A stretch of DNA of 64,000 nt from Agromyces sp. Marseille-P2726 (GTDB lineage Bacteria; Actinomycetota; Actinomycetes; Actinomycetales; Microbacteriaceae), in contig NZ_CADDWM010000012.1 of assembly GCF_902809835.1 (NCBI RefSeq), positions 62,001-126,000 of the forward strand, written 5' to 3'. A program made the position numbers and the translations under genes. Positions within the stretch are counted from its first letter, which is position 1, and each line of letters opens with the position of its first letter. Below the pieces are notes generated by a model, which was not told the origin of the DNA, made no database searches, and was given only the letters and a program-made list of their open reading frames with translations. Shown here piece after piece: positions 3,309 through 57,531 of this stretch.

Positions 3309-4796
3309 GGCGTCCGAGGTGAGCAACGCCAGGCCATCGCGCACCGCGAGGGCCGTCTCGCGGGCGCCCAGGATGCGGAAGTGCCCGGCGACCGGCACGC
3401 GCACGTTCGTCGCTCCGTCGAGTGCGCTGCCGTCGGGCACGTGCGGATCGAACGTGCCGAACACCGAGACGATCTGCGAGTTCACGGATGCCGCGCTGCC
3501 GAGCATCACGATGGTCTCGTCGGTCGGCAGCAGCGCGCGAATGCTCGGGTCGCGGAAGAGCCTCGCTCGCCGGGCTCCGGCGAACGGCGTGCAGATCGCG
3601 ACGAGTCCGCGGATGCCGAGCGAAGCCGCCCGGTCGTCGAGCAGCAGGCGCTTGCCGATGAGCCCGCCCTTCGAGTGCCCGACGATGACCCGTCCGGCAG
3701 ACGGCACGCGCACGCGAGCGAGCGCCTCCGCCACGTGGTCGGCCGTCTCGGCGATGGCCGCGCGGTTCGCTCGCAGGCCGTGCACGACGGTCACGCGGTA
3801 TCCCTCGGCGTTCAACGCGTCCCCGAGCGGGCGCAGGAACGACCAGTGCTCGTAGACCCCGGGAAGCAGCACGACCTGGGGCTTGGCCGGGTCGCCGACC
3901 GTCCAGCGCGCCGGCGAGCGTCGGCCGTCGAGGAGCACGGCGAGTTGCCTGAGGCCGGCGTAGGCGTAGTCGCGTGCCATCCATCCCACGGCGTCGAGCC
4001 GGTTCATCCGCTCGGCCTTCAGCGGTTGCGACGGCTGCGTGACGGCCCGTCCGACCGGCTCGCCGCGTGCGTCCTGGGCGATCATCTCGCCGACCCGGCG
4101 CCCACTGACCACCATGGTGTCGTGACCACGGCCGGGCACCTCGGCGTACCGCCCCTTCGGAGCCAGCGCCGCCATCTCCTCGCCCCAGTAGCGCGGCACC
4201 ACGGCGTCGGTCTCGCCACGGATGACCAGTGTGTCGGCGGTGATCTGCGGAAGCGCCTGCTCTATGCGGTGGTCGAGCATCGGCCGCAGGTTGGCGATGA
4301 ACCACCTGGGCCCGGCCTTGAGGTACAGCGCGAGCCCCGTGACGACGACCCTCGGATCGACCACCAGGAGGTCCTGCAGGAATCGCGCCGCCTGCTTCAC
4401 GAGGGTCCGCTCGCGCGGGTTCACGGTCGCGCCGATGAGCACGACGCGATCGACGAGCTCGGGATGGCGTGCGGCTGCCTCCGCGACGACCTGCGCGCCG
4501 GTGGAATGGCCCACGAGCACGGCCCGCGCGATGCCCTCGGTCGCGAGCAGGTCGGCGATCAGGTCGGCGGACTCGGCCATGGTCAACGGCCGGCGCGGCT
4601 CGGGCGCATCGCCGAATCCCGGCATGTCCAGCGCGTAGACCGTGCCGGTCGGCTCGAGGAGCTCGGCCACCGGGTCCCAGTATCCGTGCGCCATGCCGAG
4701 CCCGTGCACGAGCACGTAGTCGGGCCCGTCCGCGATGCCCGACCGGCGCACGACGACCGCGTGCTCGCCGCGGCGGAACTCGCGGGTCGTGGCCAT
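3300..4796 (-). CDS. Tandem (two-domain) alpha/beta hydrolase
   Basis: The 498-residue product holds two alpha/beta-hydrolase domains in one chain. The N-terminal domain (about 20-245) has the oxyanion segment VHGLGMAHG, nucleophile elbow GHSTG, an acid in GETD and a catalytic His in GRGHD. The C-terminal domain (about 300-490) starts at VVLLPGVYEHW, has a second elbow GHSKG and a possible His in AGHF, and resembles lipase-type serine hydrolases. The substrate is unknown. The ATG at 4796 lies six bases after a TAGAAT -10 box, so the mRNA is probably leaderless. The stop codon lies inside an intergenic repeat, so the last three residues (AAG) derive from that repeat. Confidence 0.85.
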   Translation of the reverse strand: MATTREFRRGEHAVVVRRSGIADGPDYVLVHGLGMAHGYWDPVAELLEPTGTVYALDMPGFGDAPEPRRPLTMAESADLIADLLATEGIARAVLVGHSTGAQVVAEAAARHPELVDRVVLIGATVNPRERTLVKQAARFLQDLLVVDPRVVVTGLALYLKAGPRWFIANLRPMLDHRIEQALPQITADTLVIRGETDAVVPRYWGEEMAALAPKGRYAEVPGRGHDTMVVSGRRVGEMIAQDARGEPVGRAVTQPSQPLKAERMNRLDAVGWMARDYAYAGLRQLAVLLDGRRSPARWTVGDPAKPQVVLLPGVYEHWSFLRPLGDALNAEGYRVTVVHGLRANRAAIAETADHVAEALARVRVPSAGRVIVGHSKGGLIGKRLLLDDRAASLGIRGLVAICTPFAGARRARLFRDPSIRALLPTDETIVMLGSAASVNSQIVSVFGTFDPHVPDGSALDGATNVRVPVAGHFRILGARETALAVRDGLALLTSDAAG

Positions 4797-16943: not shown

Positions 16944-18164
16944 ATGGCACGCGTGATCCTCTCCTCGCAGCATCCCCTTTCCGCCGGTCGCACGTCCGAG
17001 TCACGACTCGTGCGCGCCTATCGGGGCGAGCGTGCCGACACCACGCCCGTGTGGTTCATGCGGCAGGCCGGCCGGTCGCTCCCCGAATACCGCGAGCTGC
17101 GCGTCGGCACCCGCATGCTCGACGCGTGCCTCGAGCCCGCGATGGCGAGCGAGATCACATTGCAGCCGGTGCGCCGTCACGGTGTCGACGCGGGGATCTT
17201 CTTCAGCGACATCGTCGTGCCGTTGAAGCTCGTCGGCGTCGACGTCGAGATCCAGCCCGGACGCGGACCGGTCTTCGACAAGGGGTACGCGGATGCCGCG
17301 GCTGTCGCCGAGCTGACGAGCATCGACCCGGCACGCCTCGATGCGGCATCCGGCCCCATCACCGAGGCGGTGGAGCGCACCGTCGTGGAGCTCGGCGAGA
17401 CCCCGCTCATCGGCTTCGCCGGGGCGCCGTTCACGCTCGCCGCGTACCTCACCGAGGGCGGTCCGTCGAAGGACCATCTCGCGGCACGCACGCTCATGCA
17501 CGCCGACCCCGGAGCGTGGCGCGCGCTCATGGACTGGACGGCCGAGCTCACCGGACGCTTCCTTCGCGCACAGGTCGTGGCCGGGGCTTCCGCGGCCCAG
17601 CTCTTCGACTCGTGGGCAGGCGCCCTTTCGCTCGCCGACTACGAGGCGCACGTGGCGCCCGCGTCGGCGAAGGCGCTCGGCTTCGTGCACGACCTCGAGT
17701 ACGAGACCCCCGGATCCTCCGGTGGTCGAGGAGCGCCCGCCGAAGGCGGTTCCTCCGGTGGTCGAGGAGCGCCCGCCGAAGGCGGATCCTCCGGTGGTCG
17801 AGTAGCGCCCGCCGAAGGCGGACGCGTATCGAGACCCGTCCCCGTCGTGCACTTCGGCGTCGGCACGGGCGAGCTGCTCGGCGCGATGAGCGCGATCGGC
17901 GTCGACGCGGTCGGCGTCGACTACCGCATCCCGCTCGACGTAGCGGCGCAGCGAGTCGGCGCCGGCGTGCCGCTGCAGGGCAACCTCGATCCCGCGCTGC
18001 TCGCCGCGCCGTGGCCGGTGCTCGAGGCCGCCGTGCGCGATGTGCTCACTCGCGGGAAGGCCGCCCCGGCACACGTCTTCAACCTCGGCCACGGCGTGCC
18101 CCCCGAGACCGACCCGACCGTACTGACCCGCATCGTCGAGCTCGTCCACAAGGCGGCCGCATGA
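16944..18164 (+). CDS. hemE: Uroporphyrinogen decarboxylase carrying an in-frame repeat insertion
   Basis: HemE removes four carboxylates from uroporphyrinogen III to give coproporphyrinogen III. The family signatures [14 protein letters not shown] and [13 protein letters not shown], and the C-terminal [10 protein letters not shown], are intact. The 406 residues exceed the usual 340-360 because about 42 residues of low-complexity sequence (three units of [12 protein letters not shown] type) lie between HDLEYETP and [14 protein letters not shown]. They encode copies of the intergenic repeat family in frame. The insertion falls in a loop before a core strand, so activity may be kept. An ATG at 16944 is used here; GTG at 16953 stands seven bases after a GACAAT box and could be a leaderless start. 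Its stop overlaps the next gene by four bases. Confidence 0.95.
17715..17838 (+). repeat. Three repeat units inside hemE, 36-bp period, read in frame
   Basis: Units start at 17715, 17751 and 17787 (TCCTCCGGTGGTCGAG…). The period of 36 is a multiple of three, so the frame is kept. The third unit continues into GACGCGTATCGAGACC, the full-length form of the intergenic family. The first two carry GAGGAG where many intergenic copies have GAGTAG. Confidence 0.95.
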
Positions 18165-26183: not shown

Positions 26184-27179
26184 GTGAGTTCCGCCCCCGT
26201 TCCCCGTCTCCGTCCGCGTCGTCTGCGCGAGTCGCCGGCATTGCGTCGCCTCGTGTCCGAGACCCGCCTCGACCCCGCCGACCTCGTGCTGCCGATCTTC
26301 GTGCGCGAGGGCGTCGACGAGGCCGTGCCCATCCCCTCGATGCCGGGCGTCGTGCAGCACTCCCTCGAGAGCGTGAAGGGCGCGGTGACGGATGCCGCGG
26401 CCGCAGGCGTCGGCGGCGTGATGCTGTTCGGCGTGCCCGAGGTGCGCGACGACGTCGGATCCGCCGCCACCGACCCCGACGGGATCCTCAACGTGGCGAC
26501 CCGCGTCGTCGCCGACGAGGTCGGCGACGCCCTCGTCGTGCAGACCGACCTCTGCCTCGACGAGTTCACCGATCACGGCCACTGCGGCGTCCTCGATCCG
26601 CTCGGACGCGTCGACAACGACGCCACGCTCGAGCGGTACCGGGAGATGGCGCTCGTGCAGGCGGCATCCGGGTCGCAGCTGCTCGGCCTGTCGGGCATGA
26701 TGGACGGCCAGGTCGCCGCGGTGCGCGACGCGCTCGACGGGTCGGGCCTCACGCACACGGCGATCCTCGCGTACTCCGCGAAGTACGCCTCGGCGTTCTA
26801 CGGGCCGTTCCGCGACGCGGTCGAGTCGACGCTCGAGGGCGATCGGCGCACCTACCAGCTCGACCCCGGCAATCGCCGGGAGGGGCTCCGCGAGGCGATC
26901 ATCGACATCGACGAGGGCGCCGACATCGTCATGGTGAAGCCGGCGGGATCGTACCTCGACGTGCTGTCGGATGTCGCAGCCGCGAGCGACGTGCCCGTGT
27001 GGGCGTACCAGGTGTCGGGCGAGTACGCCATGATCGAGGCCGCCGCCATGCACGGTTGGATCGACCGCCGTCGCGCGGTGATCGAGTCGATCCGCGGCAT
27101 CAAGCGCGCCGGGGCCGACGCGGTGCTGACGTACTGGGCGACCGAGCTCGCGCGATGGATCCGGGAGGGCGCCGAATGA
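26184..27179 (+). CDS. hemB: Delta-aminolevulinic acid dehydratase (porphobilinogen synthase)
   Basis: HemB condenses two 5-aminolevulinates to porphobilinogen. The 331-residue enzyme shows the N-terminal RPRRLRES, the Schiff-base Lys regions [15 protein letters not shown] and [13 protein letters not shown], and the substrate loop YQVSGEYAM. Metal-site residues in [16 protein letters not shown] give cysteines, compatible with a zinc-containing type. The stop overlaps the hemL ATG by four bases. Confidence 0.97.
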
Positions 27180-28507
27180 GCGCACCGTCGAACGCCGAGC
27201 TGTTCGCCCGCGCGCAGGCGGCCATCCCGGGCGGCGTCAACTCGCCGGTGCGGGCGTTCCGCTCGGTGGGCGGCACGCCGCTGTTCCTCGTCTCGGCCCG
27301 CGGCCCGTACGTCACCGACGCGGAGGGTCGCGAGTACGTCGACCTCGTCGCCGGCTGGGGCCCGGCGATCCTGGGCCACGCCCACCCGCGCGTCATCGAG
27401 GCGGTGACGGATGCCGCGAGCCGCGGCCTCTCGTTCGGCGCCTCGACGCCCGCCGAGACCGAGCTCGCCGAGCTCGTCGAGCAGCGCGTCGCCCCGGTCG
27501 AGAAGCTGCGGCTCGTCTCGACCGGCACCGAGGCGACCATGAGCGCCATCCGCCTCGCCCGCGGCTTCACCGGCCGCGACGTGCTCGTGAAGTTCGCCGG
27601 CCACTACCACGGCCACTCCGACGGCCTGCTCGCCGAGGCCGGCTCGGGCCTCGCCACGTTCGCCCTGCCGGGCTCGGCCGGGGTGCCCGCCGATATCGCG
27701 GCGCTCACGCTCGTGCTGCCGTACAACGACCTCGACGCCGTGCGTCTCGCATTCGAGGAGCACGGCGACCGCATCGCCGCGGTCATCGTCGAGGCCGCTG
27801 CGGCGAACATGGGCGTCGTGCCGCCGGCACCCGGGTTCAACCGCGCGCTCGTGGAGCTCGCCCATGCCAACGGCGCACTGGTCATCAGCGACGAGGTGCT
27901 CACCGGCTTCCGCGTCTCGGCCGGCGGCTGGTGGGGGCTGGAGGCGATGGTCGAAGCGGGCGCCTACACGCCCGACCTGATGACGTTCGGCAAGGTCATC
28001 GGCGGGGGGATGCCGGTCGCCGCGCTCGGCGGACGTGCCGACGTCATGGACCAGCTCGCGCCGCTCGGCCCCGTGTACCAGGCGGGCACGCTCTCGGGGA
28101 ACCCGGTCGCCGTGGCCGCCGGCGTCGCGACCCTGCAGGCAGCGGATGCCGCGGTGTACGCGAAGCTCGACGGCGCCGCCGAGACCATCAGCGACGCGGT
28201 TTCCGACGCGCTCACCGCCGAGGGGGTCGCGCATCGCGTGCAGCGGGCGGGCAACCTGTTCAGCTTCGTGTTCGGCGCGGATGCGGCATCCGACGAGGTC
28301 CGCGACTACGCGGGCGTGCAGCGGCAGGAGTCGTGGCGCTACCCGCCGTTCTTCCACGCGATGCTCGATGCCGGGGTGTCGTTGCCGCCGAGCGTCTTCG
28401 AGGCGTGGTTCGTCACCGCCGCCCACGACGACTCGGCGATCGGCCGGATCATCGACGCGCTGCCGGCCGCGGCGCGGGCTGCGGCATCCGCCACGGTGGT
28501 CGAGTAG
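27176..28507 (+). CDS. hemL: Glutamate-1-semialdehyde 2,1-aminomutase
   Basis: HemL converts glutamate-1-semialdehyde to 5-aminolevulinate with PLP. The 443-residue protein starts with [23 protein letters not shown]. The PLP-binding Lys lies in [19 protein letters not shown], and the aspartate in [10 protein letters not shown]. The final residues TVVE and the TAG stop come from a copy of the intergenic repeat (GGTGGTCGAGTAG), so the native C-terminus has been replaced or extended by repeat sequence. It is the last gene of the heme cluster. Confidence 0.97.
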
Positions 28508-28537
28508 CGCCCGGCGGCGCCGGCGCGTATCGAGACC
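28495..28537. repeat. Repeat copy overlapping the hemL stop codon
   Basis: A full-length copy (GGTGGTCGAGTAGCGC … GCGTATCGAGACC) starts inside hemL and provides its stop. It is placed where a terminator of the heme operon would be. The rest of 28538-28753 shows nothing else recognisable except the promoter at 28742. Confidence 0.85.
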
Positions 28538-43465: not shown

Positions 43466-44587
43466 GTGAGCGACGAGATCTCCGCAACCGTGGCCGACGG
43501 CGTCGGCCATGTGACGCTCGACCGTCCGCAGGCCCTGAATGCGCTCAGCTTCGAGATGATCCGTGAGCTCACGGCGGTCTTCGAGCTGTGGCGCGACGAC
43601 CCCGAGGTCGGGCTCGTGGTTCTCGACGGCGCTGGCGACCGGGGCTTCTCGGCGGGTGGCGACATCCGGGAGCTCTACGGATACGTGTTCGACGGGAACG
43701 TGACGGAGGCGCGCGAGTTCTTCCGGTCGGAGTATCGGCTCGACGCGATGATCGCCCGCTATCCGAAGCCGGTCGTGGCGATCATGGACGGCATCACGAT
43801 GGGCGGCGGCATCGGGCTCGCCGGTCATGCGGCGATCCGCGTGGTCACGGAGCGATCACGCGTGGCGATGCCCGAGACCCGCATCGGCTTCACGCCCGAC
43901 GTCGGCGGGTCGTGGCTGCTCGCGAAGGCGCCCGGCGAACTGGGCGTGCACCTCGCCCTGAACTCGCGCACGATGGATGCCGCGGATGCGATCCACACCG
44001 GATTCGCCGACTCGTTCGTGCCATCCGGCCGGATTCCGCACCTCCTGCAGGCGCTCGCCGAGCGCGCCGACCCCGGCAGCCCGGCCGAGATCGTGATGCT
44101 GTTCGACGAGACCCCCGGACCGTCGTCGCTCGCCCTCGCCCGTGACTGGGTCGACGCCTGCTACTCCGCTCCCACGGTGTCCGAGATCATCGGGCGGCTG
44201 CGGGCGTTCGCCGAGCAGACGCCGCACGACGCGTCGAGCTCGTTCCCGACGCATCCGCTCGATTCCGCCGCCTTCGCCGACGCCGCCGCTGCCGCCGACG
44301 AACTGGAGTCGCTCTCCCCGACGGCGCTCACGGTGACCCTCGAGTCGGTGCGGCGCGCCCGTACCCTGCGCACCATCGAGGAGGCGCTCGAGCAGGAGTT
44401 CCGACTCGTGTCCTGGTTCATCGAGCAGCCCGACCTGCGCGAGGGCATCCGCGCCCAGGTCATCGACAAGGACCGTTCGCCGAGGTGGAATCCCGCCACC
44501 CTCGACGACGTGGACCCCGAACTGGCGGCACGCGTCATCGAGACACCAGTTCACGATCCGGTGTGGCCGTCTCCGGTCGTGGAGTAG
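43466..44587 (+). CDS. Enoyl-CoA hydratase/isomerase family, probable 3-hydroxyisobutyryl-CoA hydrolase
   Basis: The 373-residue length and the segments LDRPQALNALSFEMI, FSAGGDIRELY, GGGIGLAGHAAIRVVTERSRVAMPETRIGFTPDVGGSWLLAKAPGELGVHLAL and the C-terminal IRAQVIDKDRSPRWNP match HIBYL-CoA hydrolases of valine breakdown better than the 260-residue crotonases. The last residues PVVE and the TAG stop come from a repeat unit. Neighbouring prpD and prpC would process the propionyl-CoA formed by valine breakdown. Confidence 0.9.
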   Translation: MSDEISATVADGVGHVTLDRPQALNALSFEMIRELTAVFELWRDDPEVGLVVLDGAGDRGFSAGGDIRELYGYVFDGNVTEAREFFRSEYRLDAMIARYPKPVVAIMDGITMGGGIGLAGHAAIRVVTERSRVAMPETRIGFTPDVGGSWLLAKAPGELGVHLALNSRTMDAADAIHTGFADSFVPSGRIPHLLQALAERADPGSPAEIVMLFDETPGPSSLALARDWVDACYSAPTVSEIIGRLRAFAEQTPHDASSSFPTHPLDSAAFADAAAAADELESLSPTALTVTLESVRRARTLRTIEEALEQEFRLVSWFIEQPDLREGIRAQVIDKDRSPRWNPATLDDVDPELAARVIETPVHDPVWPSPVVE

Positions 44588-44766
44588 TGCCGGCCGGAGG
44601 CCGACGCGTATCGAGACGTCAGACATTCGGATAGGTCTCCGGTCGTCGAGTAGTGCCGGCCGGAGGCCGACGCGTATCGAGACGCCGGACATTCGGATAG
44701 GTCTCCGGTCGTCGAGTAGTGCCGGCCGGAGGCCGACGCGTATCGAGACGCCAGACATTCGGATAG
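44571..44766. repeat. Three tandem 66-bp units between the HIBYL-CoA hydrolase gene and prpD
   Basis: Units begin CTCCGGTCGT at 44571, 44637 and 44703. Each holds a repeat-family core (GGTCG…GAGTAG to GCGTATCGAGAC) followed by a spacer ending ATTCGGATAG. The first unit includes the end and stop codon of the upstream gene; the last runs into the prpD -10 element. Tandem duplication has therefore copied a stop codon and part of a promoter region. Confidence 0.92.
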
Positions 44767-46326: not shown

Positions 46327-46562
46327 GCTGGTCGAGTAGCGCCCGGCGGAGCCGGACGCGTATCGAGACCCTCGTCCTGACGGCGCTTCCGCTGGTCGAG
46401 TAGCGCCCGGCGGAGCCGGACGCGTATCGAGACCCTCGTCCTGACGGCGCTTCCGCTGGTCGAGTAGCGCCCGGCGGAGCCGGACGCGTATCGAGACCCT
46501 CGTGCAACCTCATCTCGATGCGGCTCTGGTCCCGATACGGCTGCTTCGCTGCCTACTCCACC
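46327..46562. repeat. Three direct 64-bp units plus one inverted copy between prpD and prpC
   Basis: Units begin GCTGGTCGAGTAGCGC at 46327, 46391 and 46455, all ending CGTATCGAGACC, with near-identical spacers. A diverged inverted copy (46528-46562) follows. Together they fill the 318-base gap up to the prpC promoter. Confidence 0.92.
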
Positions 46563-54164: not shown

Positions 54165-54246
54165 GGTCGAGTAGCGCCGCCGAAGGCGACGGGTATCGAG
54201 ACCGGAGGTGAGGTCTCGATACGGCTGCTCCGCGGCCTACTCGACC
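54165..54246. repeat. Inverted repeat pair inside the DrrAB-type operon
   Basis: 54165-54203 (GGTCGAGTAGCGCC … TATCGAGACC) is inverted against 54212-54246 with an 8-base loop. It lies between the ATPase gene and the permease gene of one operon, where it could stabilise or attenuate the message. Confidence 0.88.
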
Positions 54247-56373: not shown

Positions 56374-57531
56374 CTAACGACCGGCCGGCGTCGCGTTCGC
56401 GCGAGCGGCGCGCACGAGGGCGTCGCGACAGGCCACGACCGCCGGTCGGGCGGCGGCAGCGAGGCGTGTCGACGAGAAGACCTCGCGCTGCGGATGCCCC
56501 GCCAGGTCGACGAGCCTCACGGTCGGCGCCTCGCCCGCCCACACGAGGTCGGGCAGCAGCCCGACGGCATTGCCCGATCGGATGAGGCGGATGTGCGCCA
56601 TGAGATCGGCGGTCTCGAAGCGCACGTCGGGCTCGAACCCCGCGTCGCGGCAGAGCTGCTCGGCCCACTCGCGCGGCGCGGTGCCCTCGGGCTCGAGCAC
56701 CCAGGGCCGGTCGGATGCCGCAGCGAGGGCGGGGGTCTCGATACGCGTCGCCTGCGGCGGCGCTACTCGACCACCGGGGTACTCGGGCGGCGCTCCTCGA
56801 CCACCGGGGTACTCGGGCGGCGCTCCTCGACCACCGGGGGTCTCGATACGCGTCGCCTGCGGCGGCGCTACTCGACCACCGGGGGTCTCGATACGCGTCG
56901 CCTGCGGCGGCGCTACTCGACCATCGGGGTTCTCGGGCGGCGGCGCTCCTCGACCACCGGGGTTCGCGGGCGGCGGCGCTCCTCGACCACCGGTGTCGTC
57001 GGGCGGCAGCGCCAGCCGGATCGCGTCGGACGCGAGGTGCACGCGATCGAGGTCGGCGCGGTGGGCTCGCGTGTAGCCCGGGTACTGCTCGGCGATCACG
57101 AGGTCGAAGTCGCGCGCGGCCAGGTCGAAGAGGGCGAGCTCGGGCTCGCGCTCCGTGACCTCGACGCGCAGGGCGGGATGCTCGGTGCGCAGCAGCGTGA
57201 GAGCGAGCGGCACCATCGCGTGCGCCGCCGACTGGAACACGGCGATGCGCACCGTGCCGCCGACGGTGGTGAGCGACCGCGCGACATCCGCCTCGGCCTC
57301 CTCGAGCCGATCCAGCACCGCGCGTGCGTGCTCGACGAGCACGAGCGCCTGCGGCGTGAGCTGCACGCGCCGCCCGACCTGCACGAGCAGCGGCACGCCG
57401 GCCTCCTTCTCGAGCAGGCTCAGCTGCTGCGACACCGACGACGGGCTGTACGACAACGCCTCTGCCACGGCCGCGAGGGTGCCGCGCTGGCTCAACTCGA
57501 CCAGCAACCGCAGTCGGCGTACATCGAGCAT
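56374..57531 (-). CDS. LysR family transcriptional regulator with an 87-residue repeat-derived insertion
   Basis: The first 60 residues are a LysR winged helix (LDVRRLRLLVELSQRGTLAAVAEALSYSPSSVSQQLSLLEKEAGV), followed by the effector domain (VRIAVFQSAAHAMVPLALTLLR…YPGYTRA). Total length is 385 against about 300 usual for the family. The excess is a block between RLALPPDDT and ALAAASDRPWVLEPEG made of seven modules such as GGRGAPPEYP and GGRVAPPQATRIETP, which are translated intergenic repeats. The insertion sits in the effector-binding half, near the hinge, so the regulator may be altered or inactive. GGAGG precedes the ATG. It is divergent from putA and probably regulates it. Confidence 0.92.
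   Translation of the reverse strand: MLDVRRLRLLVELSQRGTLAAVAEALSYSPSSVSQQLSLLEKEAGVPLLVQVGRRVQLTPQALVLVEHARAVLDRLEEAEADVARSLTTVGGTVRIAVFQSAAHAMVPLALTLLRTEHPALRVEVTEREPELALFDLAARDFDLVIAEQYPGYTRAHRADLDRVHLASDAIRLALPPDDTGGRGAPPPANPGGRGAPPPENPDGRVAPPQATRIETPGGRVAPPQATRIETPGGRGAPPEYPGGRGAPPEYPGGRVAPPQATRIETPALAAASDRPWVLEPEGTAPREWAEQLCRDAGFEPDVRFETADLMAHIRLIRSGNAVGLLPDLVWAGEAPTVRLVDLAGHPQREVFSSTRLAAAARPAVVACRDALVRAARANATPAGR
56731..56991 (-). repeat. Seven repeat modules inside the LysR gene, all in frame (261 bp)
   Basis: In coding direction the modules are two of GGRGAPPP(A/E)NP, two long (ending QATRIETP), two of GGRGAPPEYP and one long. Each long module is a full repeat (GGTGGTCGAGTAGCGC … CGTATCGAGACC). 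TAG is avoided because the frame reads CGA GTA GCG. Total length is a multiple of three. Confidence 0.95.

Follow-up and report, generated by a model that had tools for sequence, protein, structure and literature searches.

In REPIN/RAYT systems, inverted pairs of short REPs are dispersed in the genome. GTAG- and CGTC-tagged REPs have been described in more than 80 species by Di Nocera, De Gregorio and Rocco (2013; PMC3733652), whose main text reports that the TAG ends of REPs act as stop codons, that REPs are translated within genes unrelated to one another, a DNA ligase and RNA helicases among them (many of 20–30 residues, some of 43–82), and that association with a RAYT gene is usual but not universal for the GTAG-tagged kind. 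That main text treats GTAG repeats of Proteobacteria, Cyanobacteria, Chloroflexi and the PVC group, and the string 'actinobact' is absent from it. The palindromic elements of Rickettsia (Ogata et al. 2000, 2002), of about 105–150 bp and with an internal reading frame, are found in frame in conserved genes and are thought to be compatible with the protein fold, according to the accounts in PMC10969869 and PMC2229807; the latter also describes the guanylate kinase of R. conorii, which is translated with its insert and active, with a changed affinity for its substrate. Some Rickettsia elements (RPE-4, RPE-6) are given in PMC3733652 as ending in CGTC.

The window analyzed here (the whole 64-kb stretch of DNA, from the Agromyces genome henceforth called G000) contains a hemE gene in which a segment of comparable nature is translated. 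We consider it very probable that this segment is one copy of a palindromic, REP-like element with a GTAG tag, found widely across the genus, and that it came to its present form by the course of entry, selection and duplication set out below. The gene and its insert are laid out as follows.

16944..18164, + strand: hemE, uroporphyrinogen decarboxylase, 406 aa including the insert; TIGR01464 equivalog above cut-off, PF01208 in two stretches
17712..17837, + strand: translated repeat insert of 42 codons (126 bp), residues 257–298, flanked by LEYETP and VPVVHFG
17711..17746, + strand: unit 1, left part only, GAGGAG form
17747..17782, + strand: unit 2, left part only, GAGGAG form
17783..17836, + strand: unit 3 with spacer, containing the complete 41-nt element GGTCGAGTAG...GTATCGAGACC at 17796–17836

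The identity of the gene is clear from the profile search (340 bits for TIGR01464, cut-off 303). The first-pass annotation had described three 36-bp repeat units adding about 42 residues between LEYETP and VPVVHFG, in a reading frame that avoids the TAG of the intergenic form, and the details bear this out: direct copies start at 17711, 17747 and 17783 (period 36 bp, 97–100% alike), the insert is 42 residues long, and the TAG of GAGTAG is out of frame. The encoded peptide consists of one 12-residue segment twice, a further 12-residue segment once, and then GRVSRP. Unit 3 extends into a complete element (GGTCGAGTAGCGCCCGCCGAAGGCGGACGCGTATCGAGACC) with the right end CGTATCGAGACC at 17825–17836, and the first 40 nt of this element are identical to those of a copy on another contig (G000:C1:95344–95383), which suggests, as far as sequence identity can tell, a recent entry.

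The window has 15 occurrences of the repeat core, TGGTCGAGNAGC, where shuffles predict 0.07, and the complete element was found in 91 copies in the 3.56-Mb draft (15 contigs), the reversed control giving 0. Among 90 copies re-read, 57 are distinct, lengths range from 33 to 42 nt and 50 are 41 nt long. In 28 distinct 41-nt copies, 97.5% of the stem cells are paired, 36 cells are changed on both sides (9.3 in shuffles) and covariation reaches 0.299, versus 0.072 (sd 0.016) when shuffled and at most 0.051 when the partner is slid by 1–3 columns. With both sides changed in 6 of 13 stem pairs, a short stem-loop with alternative complementary stems is confirmed; the loop is mostly GNA, and MFE z-scores for three sequences lie between -1.9 and -2.6. 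GTAG abuts the stem in all complete copies, an observation not independent of the search pattern, which required it. Beyond the hairpin there are conserved arms (GGTCGA and TATCGAGACC); the outer ends being fixed by the same pattern, their invariance is no evidence. Elements occur singly, as inverted pairs and in tandem arrays, with 45 same-strand arrays in G000. In 30 of 30 mixed arrays of this genome left-only units come first and a complete unit closes the array, an order that unit calling may favor at short spacing. Besides hemE, the window has the following sites.

28498..28537, + strand: single element after a gene; its TAG at 28505–28507 serves as stop codon to an aminotransferase class-III gene (26999–28507)
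44575..44750, + strand: three diverged units of the same repeat family, period 66 (GAGTAGTG...CGTATCGAGACG)
46330..46498, + strand: three complete elements in tandem, period 64, which the flank-frame test scores as not in frame
54165..54246, one element per strand: inverted element pair

As described in PMC3733652, GTAG-tagged REPs share with the Agromyces element the short hairpin, the short loop and the alternative complementary stems, as well as inverted pairs, tandem groups that carry flanking DNA, TAG serving as the stop codon of neighboring genes, high copy number, a mostly intergenic location and translated copies in unrelated genes. GTAG beside the stem would be a further likeness, though here the search pattern required it. 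The Agromyces element differs in the arms outside its hairpin and in the lack of a Y1 match in 60 genomes. The first-pass annotation had likened the insert to the Rickettsia elements and had known of no description in Actinobacteria. The likeness stands for the way of working, in-frame palindromes in unrelated conserved genes, but not for size or terminus: the Agromyces element has 33–42 nt, ends in GGTCGAGTAG and GTATCGAGACC and is GTAG-tagged with no CGTC terminus, as against about 105–150 bp for the Rickettsia elements. Identity with a Rickettsia palindromic element was rejected on these grounds; of the kinds described, the GTAG-tagged REP comes nearest. As to Actinobacteria, our searches of open-licence papers gave no report of translated palindromic repeats (in the Agromyces aureus paper, PMC5217419, 'palindrom' appears only within the CRISPR abbreviation), but the phenomenon is less new than had been thought, since translated REPs were already described in several bacterial groups (PMC3733652). 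What is new here is the actinobacterial family, the absence of a Y1 match in 60 of 60 genomes and the use of the same enzyme loops in different species. The case contributes an actinobacterial example, in probably indispensable genes (hemE, dnaX), of something known chiefly from Rickettsia and Proteobacteria.

The complete-element pattern was present in 43 of the 60 Agromyces genomes, with a maximum of 299 copies per genome; across the class it was found in 15 of 296 genomes (five of them Agromyces) and in 4 of 114 genera. In genomes of another actinobacterial family (f33: G085 and others) the same outer ends, often with longer inner parts, reach up to 261 copies per genome. A search for Y1 transposases with the Pfam model PF01797, to which we take RAYTs to belong, gave no match in any of the 60 Agromyces genomes and matches in 5 of 14 control genomes, although a diverged enzyme could escape a single model. 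The dispersed inverted pairs resemble those of REPIN/RAYT systems; the own genome and its 59 congeners, having no match to this one Pfam model, give no support for a RAYT as the mover. That no Y1 match accompanies up to 299 copies per genome makes the question of the mover testable.

Another line of evidence comes from the other genes that carry the element. The repeat forms 70 clusters in G000 (57 stretches plus the window); the 91 complete pairs and 64 places were covered in full, and 100 of 142 places in a further search. Lone left-only matches were dropped before this count, and most stretches around lone GGTCGAGGAGCG matches lie outside it. Only 16 clusters are in frame inside genes by a test that asks for one and the same best frame left and right of the repeat and for an open frame (17 when the C-terminal tail of pta is included), in keeping with the intergenic repeat family of the first-pass annotation; the test cannot score GAGTAG units in the TAG frame, part of the multiple-of-three spacing in coding arrays is built into it, and clusters called non-coding may hide coding ones (e.g. 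C3, C11:397884 and C15:824870, all GAGGAG-rich). The proposed genome search for repeat-bearing coding regions yielded some 17 genes, hemE included, whose names, apart from hemE, derive from Pfam matches and reading. In 13 of the 17, Pfam domains flank the repeat on both sides or span it: hemE, a LysR-type regulator, a mobA-like gene, a thiF-rhodanese gene, an ABC-F-type ABC ATPase, ligD, menB, a lysE-type gene, a clpC-type gene, hutH, a phosphotransferase-aminotransferase fusion, a SNF2 helicase and a DUF3516 protein. A domain on one side only was found in four (dnaX, a DEAD helicase, a family-3 glycosidase and pta). The phosphotransferase-aminotransferase protein (L204, G000:C14:85200–88200) has, in addition to the array that was counted, another long stretch resembling the repeat (GRVGPGEA..., SRYASPPASLLDERVTA...). 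The LysR-type regulator holds a second in-frame array of the window, absent from the first-pass annotation.

56374..57531, - strand: LysR-type regulator with seven repeat units; PF00126 lies to one side and PF03466 is split in two; start codon assigned by eye
56735..56988, - strand: in-frame array of three complete and four left-only units, peptide GGRVAPPQATRIETP and variants

The reading frames used in genes are far from random. All 34 forward units, from 13 clusters of G000, are read in one frame, giving GRVAP... or GRGAP..., although the forward element has one further frame open, plus a third in the GAGGAG form; 13 of 13 clusters in one frame has p 0.0002 against an even split between two frames. 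Reverse units are in the GLDT...ATRP frame in six of eight clusters. In G013, where 100 of 106 places were listed and 60 stretches taken (three listed places on contig C5 being excluded), 8 of 71 clusters pass the coding test, among them, by reading and among the matches listed, hemE, the clpC-type gene (same site), menB and a murB-like gene; seven of the eight are entered in the GRV frame, the murB-like gene being the exception (by eye, among the matches listed). Codon usage was rejected as the cause of the favored frame: in the consensus copy the favored forward frame has a third-position GC of 0.46, versus 0.77 and 0.85 in the other forward frames, and the GRV-type and GLDT...ATRP frames, both at 0.46, are the lowest of all six (hemE 0.86, genus mean 0.93). 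Because the favored frames fit the codons worst, the hydrophilic Gly/Ala/Pro/Arg-rich peptide is the likely reason for the choice. Coding clusters comprise 29 GGAG, 26 GTAG and 1 GAAG units.

The same sites were followed in relatives among the 60 genomes, reading the junctions of 19 of 30 hutH loci and of all 30 menB loci. The matches of most relatives lack residues ~258–325 of HutH, those of G013, G057, G005 and some others extending slightly into this part, and repeats or their remains were seen at 4 of the 19 junctions (G000, G013, G020 and G057). At the start of contig C14, beside hutH, G000:C14:1–568 matches part of the HutH C-terminus two more times (residues 585–667 and 585–638). In menB, five of the 30 junctions have clear repeats (G000, G002, G013, G031, G057) and one a decayed form (G024). 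Since G000, G013 and G057 share the off-consensus variants GGATCTCGATACGC and TACTCGATC, one old insertion into menB whose stems diverged afterwards is suggested, with gene transfer as an alternative.

These observations also bear on whether the inserts are kept for a function, as a hairpin in mRNA or DNA or as a protein linker, instead of being merely tolerated, which we regard as unlikely. The hairpin covariation would point to it, but was taken over all copies pooled, most of them outside genes; clusters that are mostly GAGGAG are commoner in genes (8/17 vs 4/53 outside, Fisher p 0.0007), but the search pattern for GAGGAG arrays also fits ordinary coding DNA. The same loops are indeed used in several species, yet neither the hemE loops of most species nor 24 of 30 menB junctions have the element, and some species show decayed coding copies in menB and hutH. 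It is conceivable, and we offer it tentatively, that the element is an orphan GTAG-type palindrome moved by non-Y1 machinery, whose stop-free GGAG coding form is amplifying in genes, and which would be a recurrent source of disordered loops in essential enzymes that later decay to ordinary linkers.

For hemE itself the comparison covered 58 intact genes from the 60 Agromyces genomes; G021, which gave no usable copy, and G036, whose gene is frameshifted, were set aside. There are two hypervariable loops: loop 1 near residue 151, where the compared stretches range from 36 to 117 bp, and loop 2 at residues 257–298, where they range from 6 to 147 bp. In loop 2 a stretch of 51 bp is the most frequent (31 of 58), and relative to it the 147 bp of G000 amount to 32 additional residues. 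The first-pass annotation had named conservation of the segment in most homologues as fatal to its reading, and this is not what is seen: the element is absent at this loop in 56 of the 57 other intact Agromyces hemE genes. Both element ends occur in loop 2 only in G000 and G013 (2/58), which are built differently, G013 having one copy in each orientation, with other stems, which encode GGRVGAQAPYRDPASGLDTLAALATRP; a single end with one mismatch in loop 2 of G026 is chance or a relic. As the two carriers are not sisters on the hemE tree, whose inner branches are short, two separate entries into loop 2 are likely. Loop 1 has a diverged reverse copy, nearly the same in DNA, in 4 of 58 genes (G010, G013, G020, G024). 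In three others (G002, G045, G049; loci L171, L165, L169) loop 1 has a different translated repeat-like sequence, TTTCGACA(A/G)GCTC(A/G)ACCA. Alignment with two relatives gave no clean junction at hemE, the loop being too hypervariable for the entry point or any target-site duplication to be read. The frameshift in hemE of G036 (L156, G036:C1:661900–663700) lies at loop 2 and is a sequencing error or a real break. With occupied, decayed and empty forms of the same loop sites spread over 60 genomes of a single genus, the path from DNA hairpin to protein becomes traceable.

The AlphaFold2 model (alignment of 50) has a mean pLDDT of 92.2, falling to 55–59 at residues 261–290, and residues 257–293 are without secondary structure; its best 24 PDB fold matches are URO-D enzymes. 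Loop 2 is placed between helix 230–249 and barrel strand 301–305, within a short strand pair (251–256 and 294–298), and loop 1 between helix 137–150 and strand 155–160, both thus of the helix-to-strand type. The insert is predicted to be a disordered loop between helix and strand of the URO-D barrel. In TIM barrels the helix-to-strand loops are on the face away from the active site, a position that would explain why the insert is tolerated. On the account that we favor, the element would have entered this already variable loop on the far face of the barrel, and selection would have retained it only where orientation and frame yielded a linker free of stops and rich in Gly, Ala, Pro and Arg. 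Tandem duplication of the left part together with some of the loop DNA, in 36-bp steps, would then have produced a 42-residue disordered loop in a working enzyme.

Growth of a low-complexity linker by slippage, with the likeness to the repeat secondary, would also suit a gene in which both loops vary in length among relatives and the units hold spacer DNA (GGATCCTCC) resembling a relative's loop, and tandem copies require some slippage in any case. We nonetheless consider it very unlikely as the origin of the insert, because the last unit is a complete element matching a copy on another contig over its first 40 nt and the same element is found in unrelated genes.

Contig C3 ends 42 bases after an array (4464–4555 of 4597) and C7 has a match at base 2, so array lengths in the 15-contig draft could be wrong and copy numbers may be too low. 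Although repeats evidently trouble the assembly, it is scarcely credible that an assembly or sequencing error put repeat DNA into hemE: the frame and both halves of the gene are intact across the insert, 16 other genes of the genome have in-frame copies, and other assemblies have them in hemE, menB, hutH and the clpC-type gene. Equally implausible is a decaying pseudogene, for which nothing speaks beyond the insert itself, given the open frame, the end-to-end alignment of HemE with 49 homologues, the lack of a second copy (the other five matches in G000 reach at most 36.1 bits and cover only query residues 253–320) and the adjoining hemA (NF000750, 489 bits, cut-off 289). From the same sequence features we infer that the insert-bearing HemE is functional. 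Both hemE and dnaX are essential in other bacteria and are probably indispensable here. A protoporphyrinogen-oxidase-like gene, whose best equivalog is below cut-off, also adjoins hemE.
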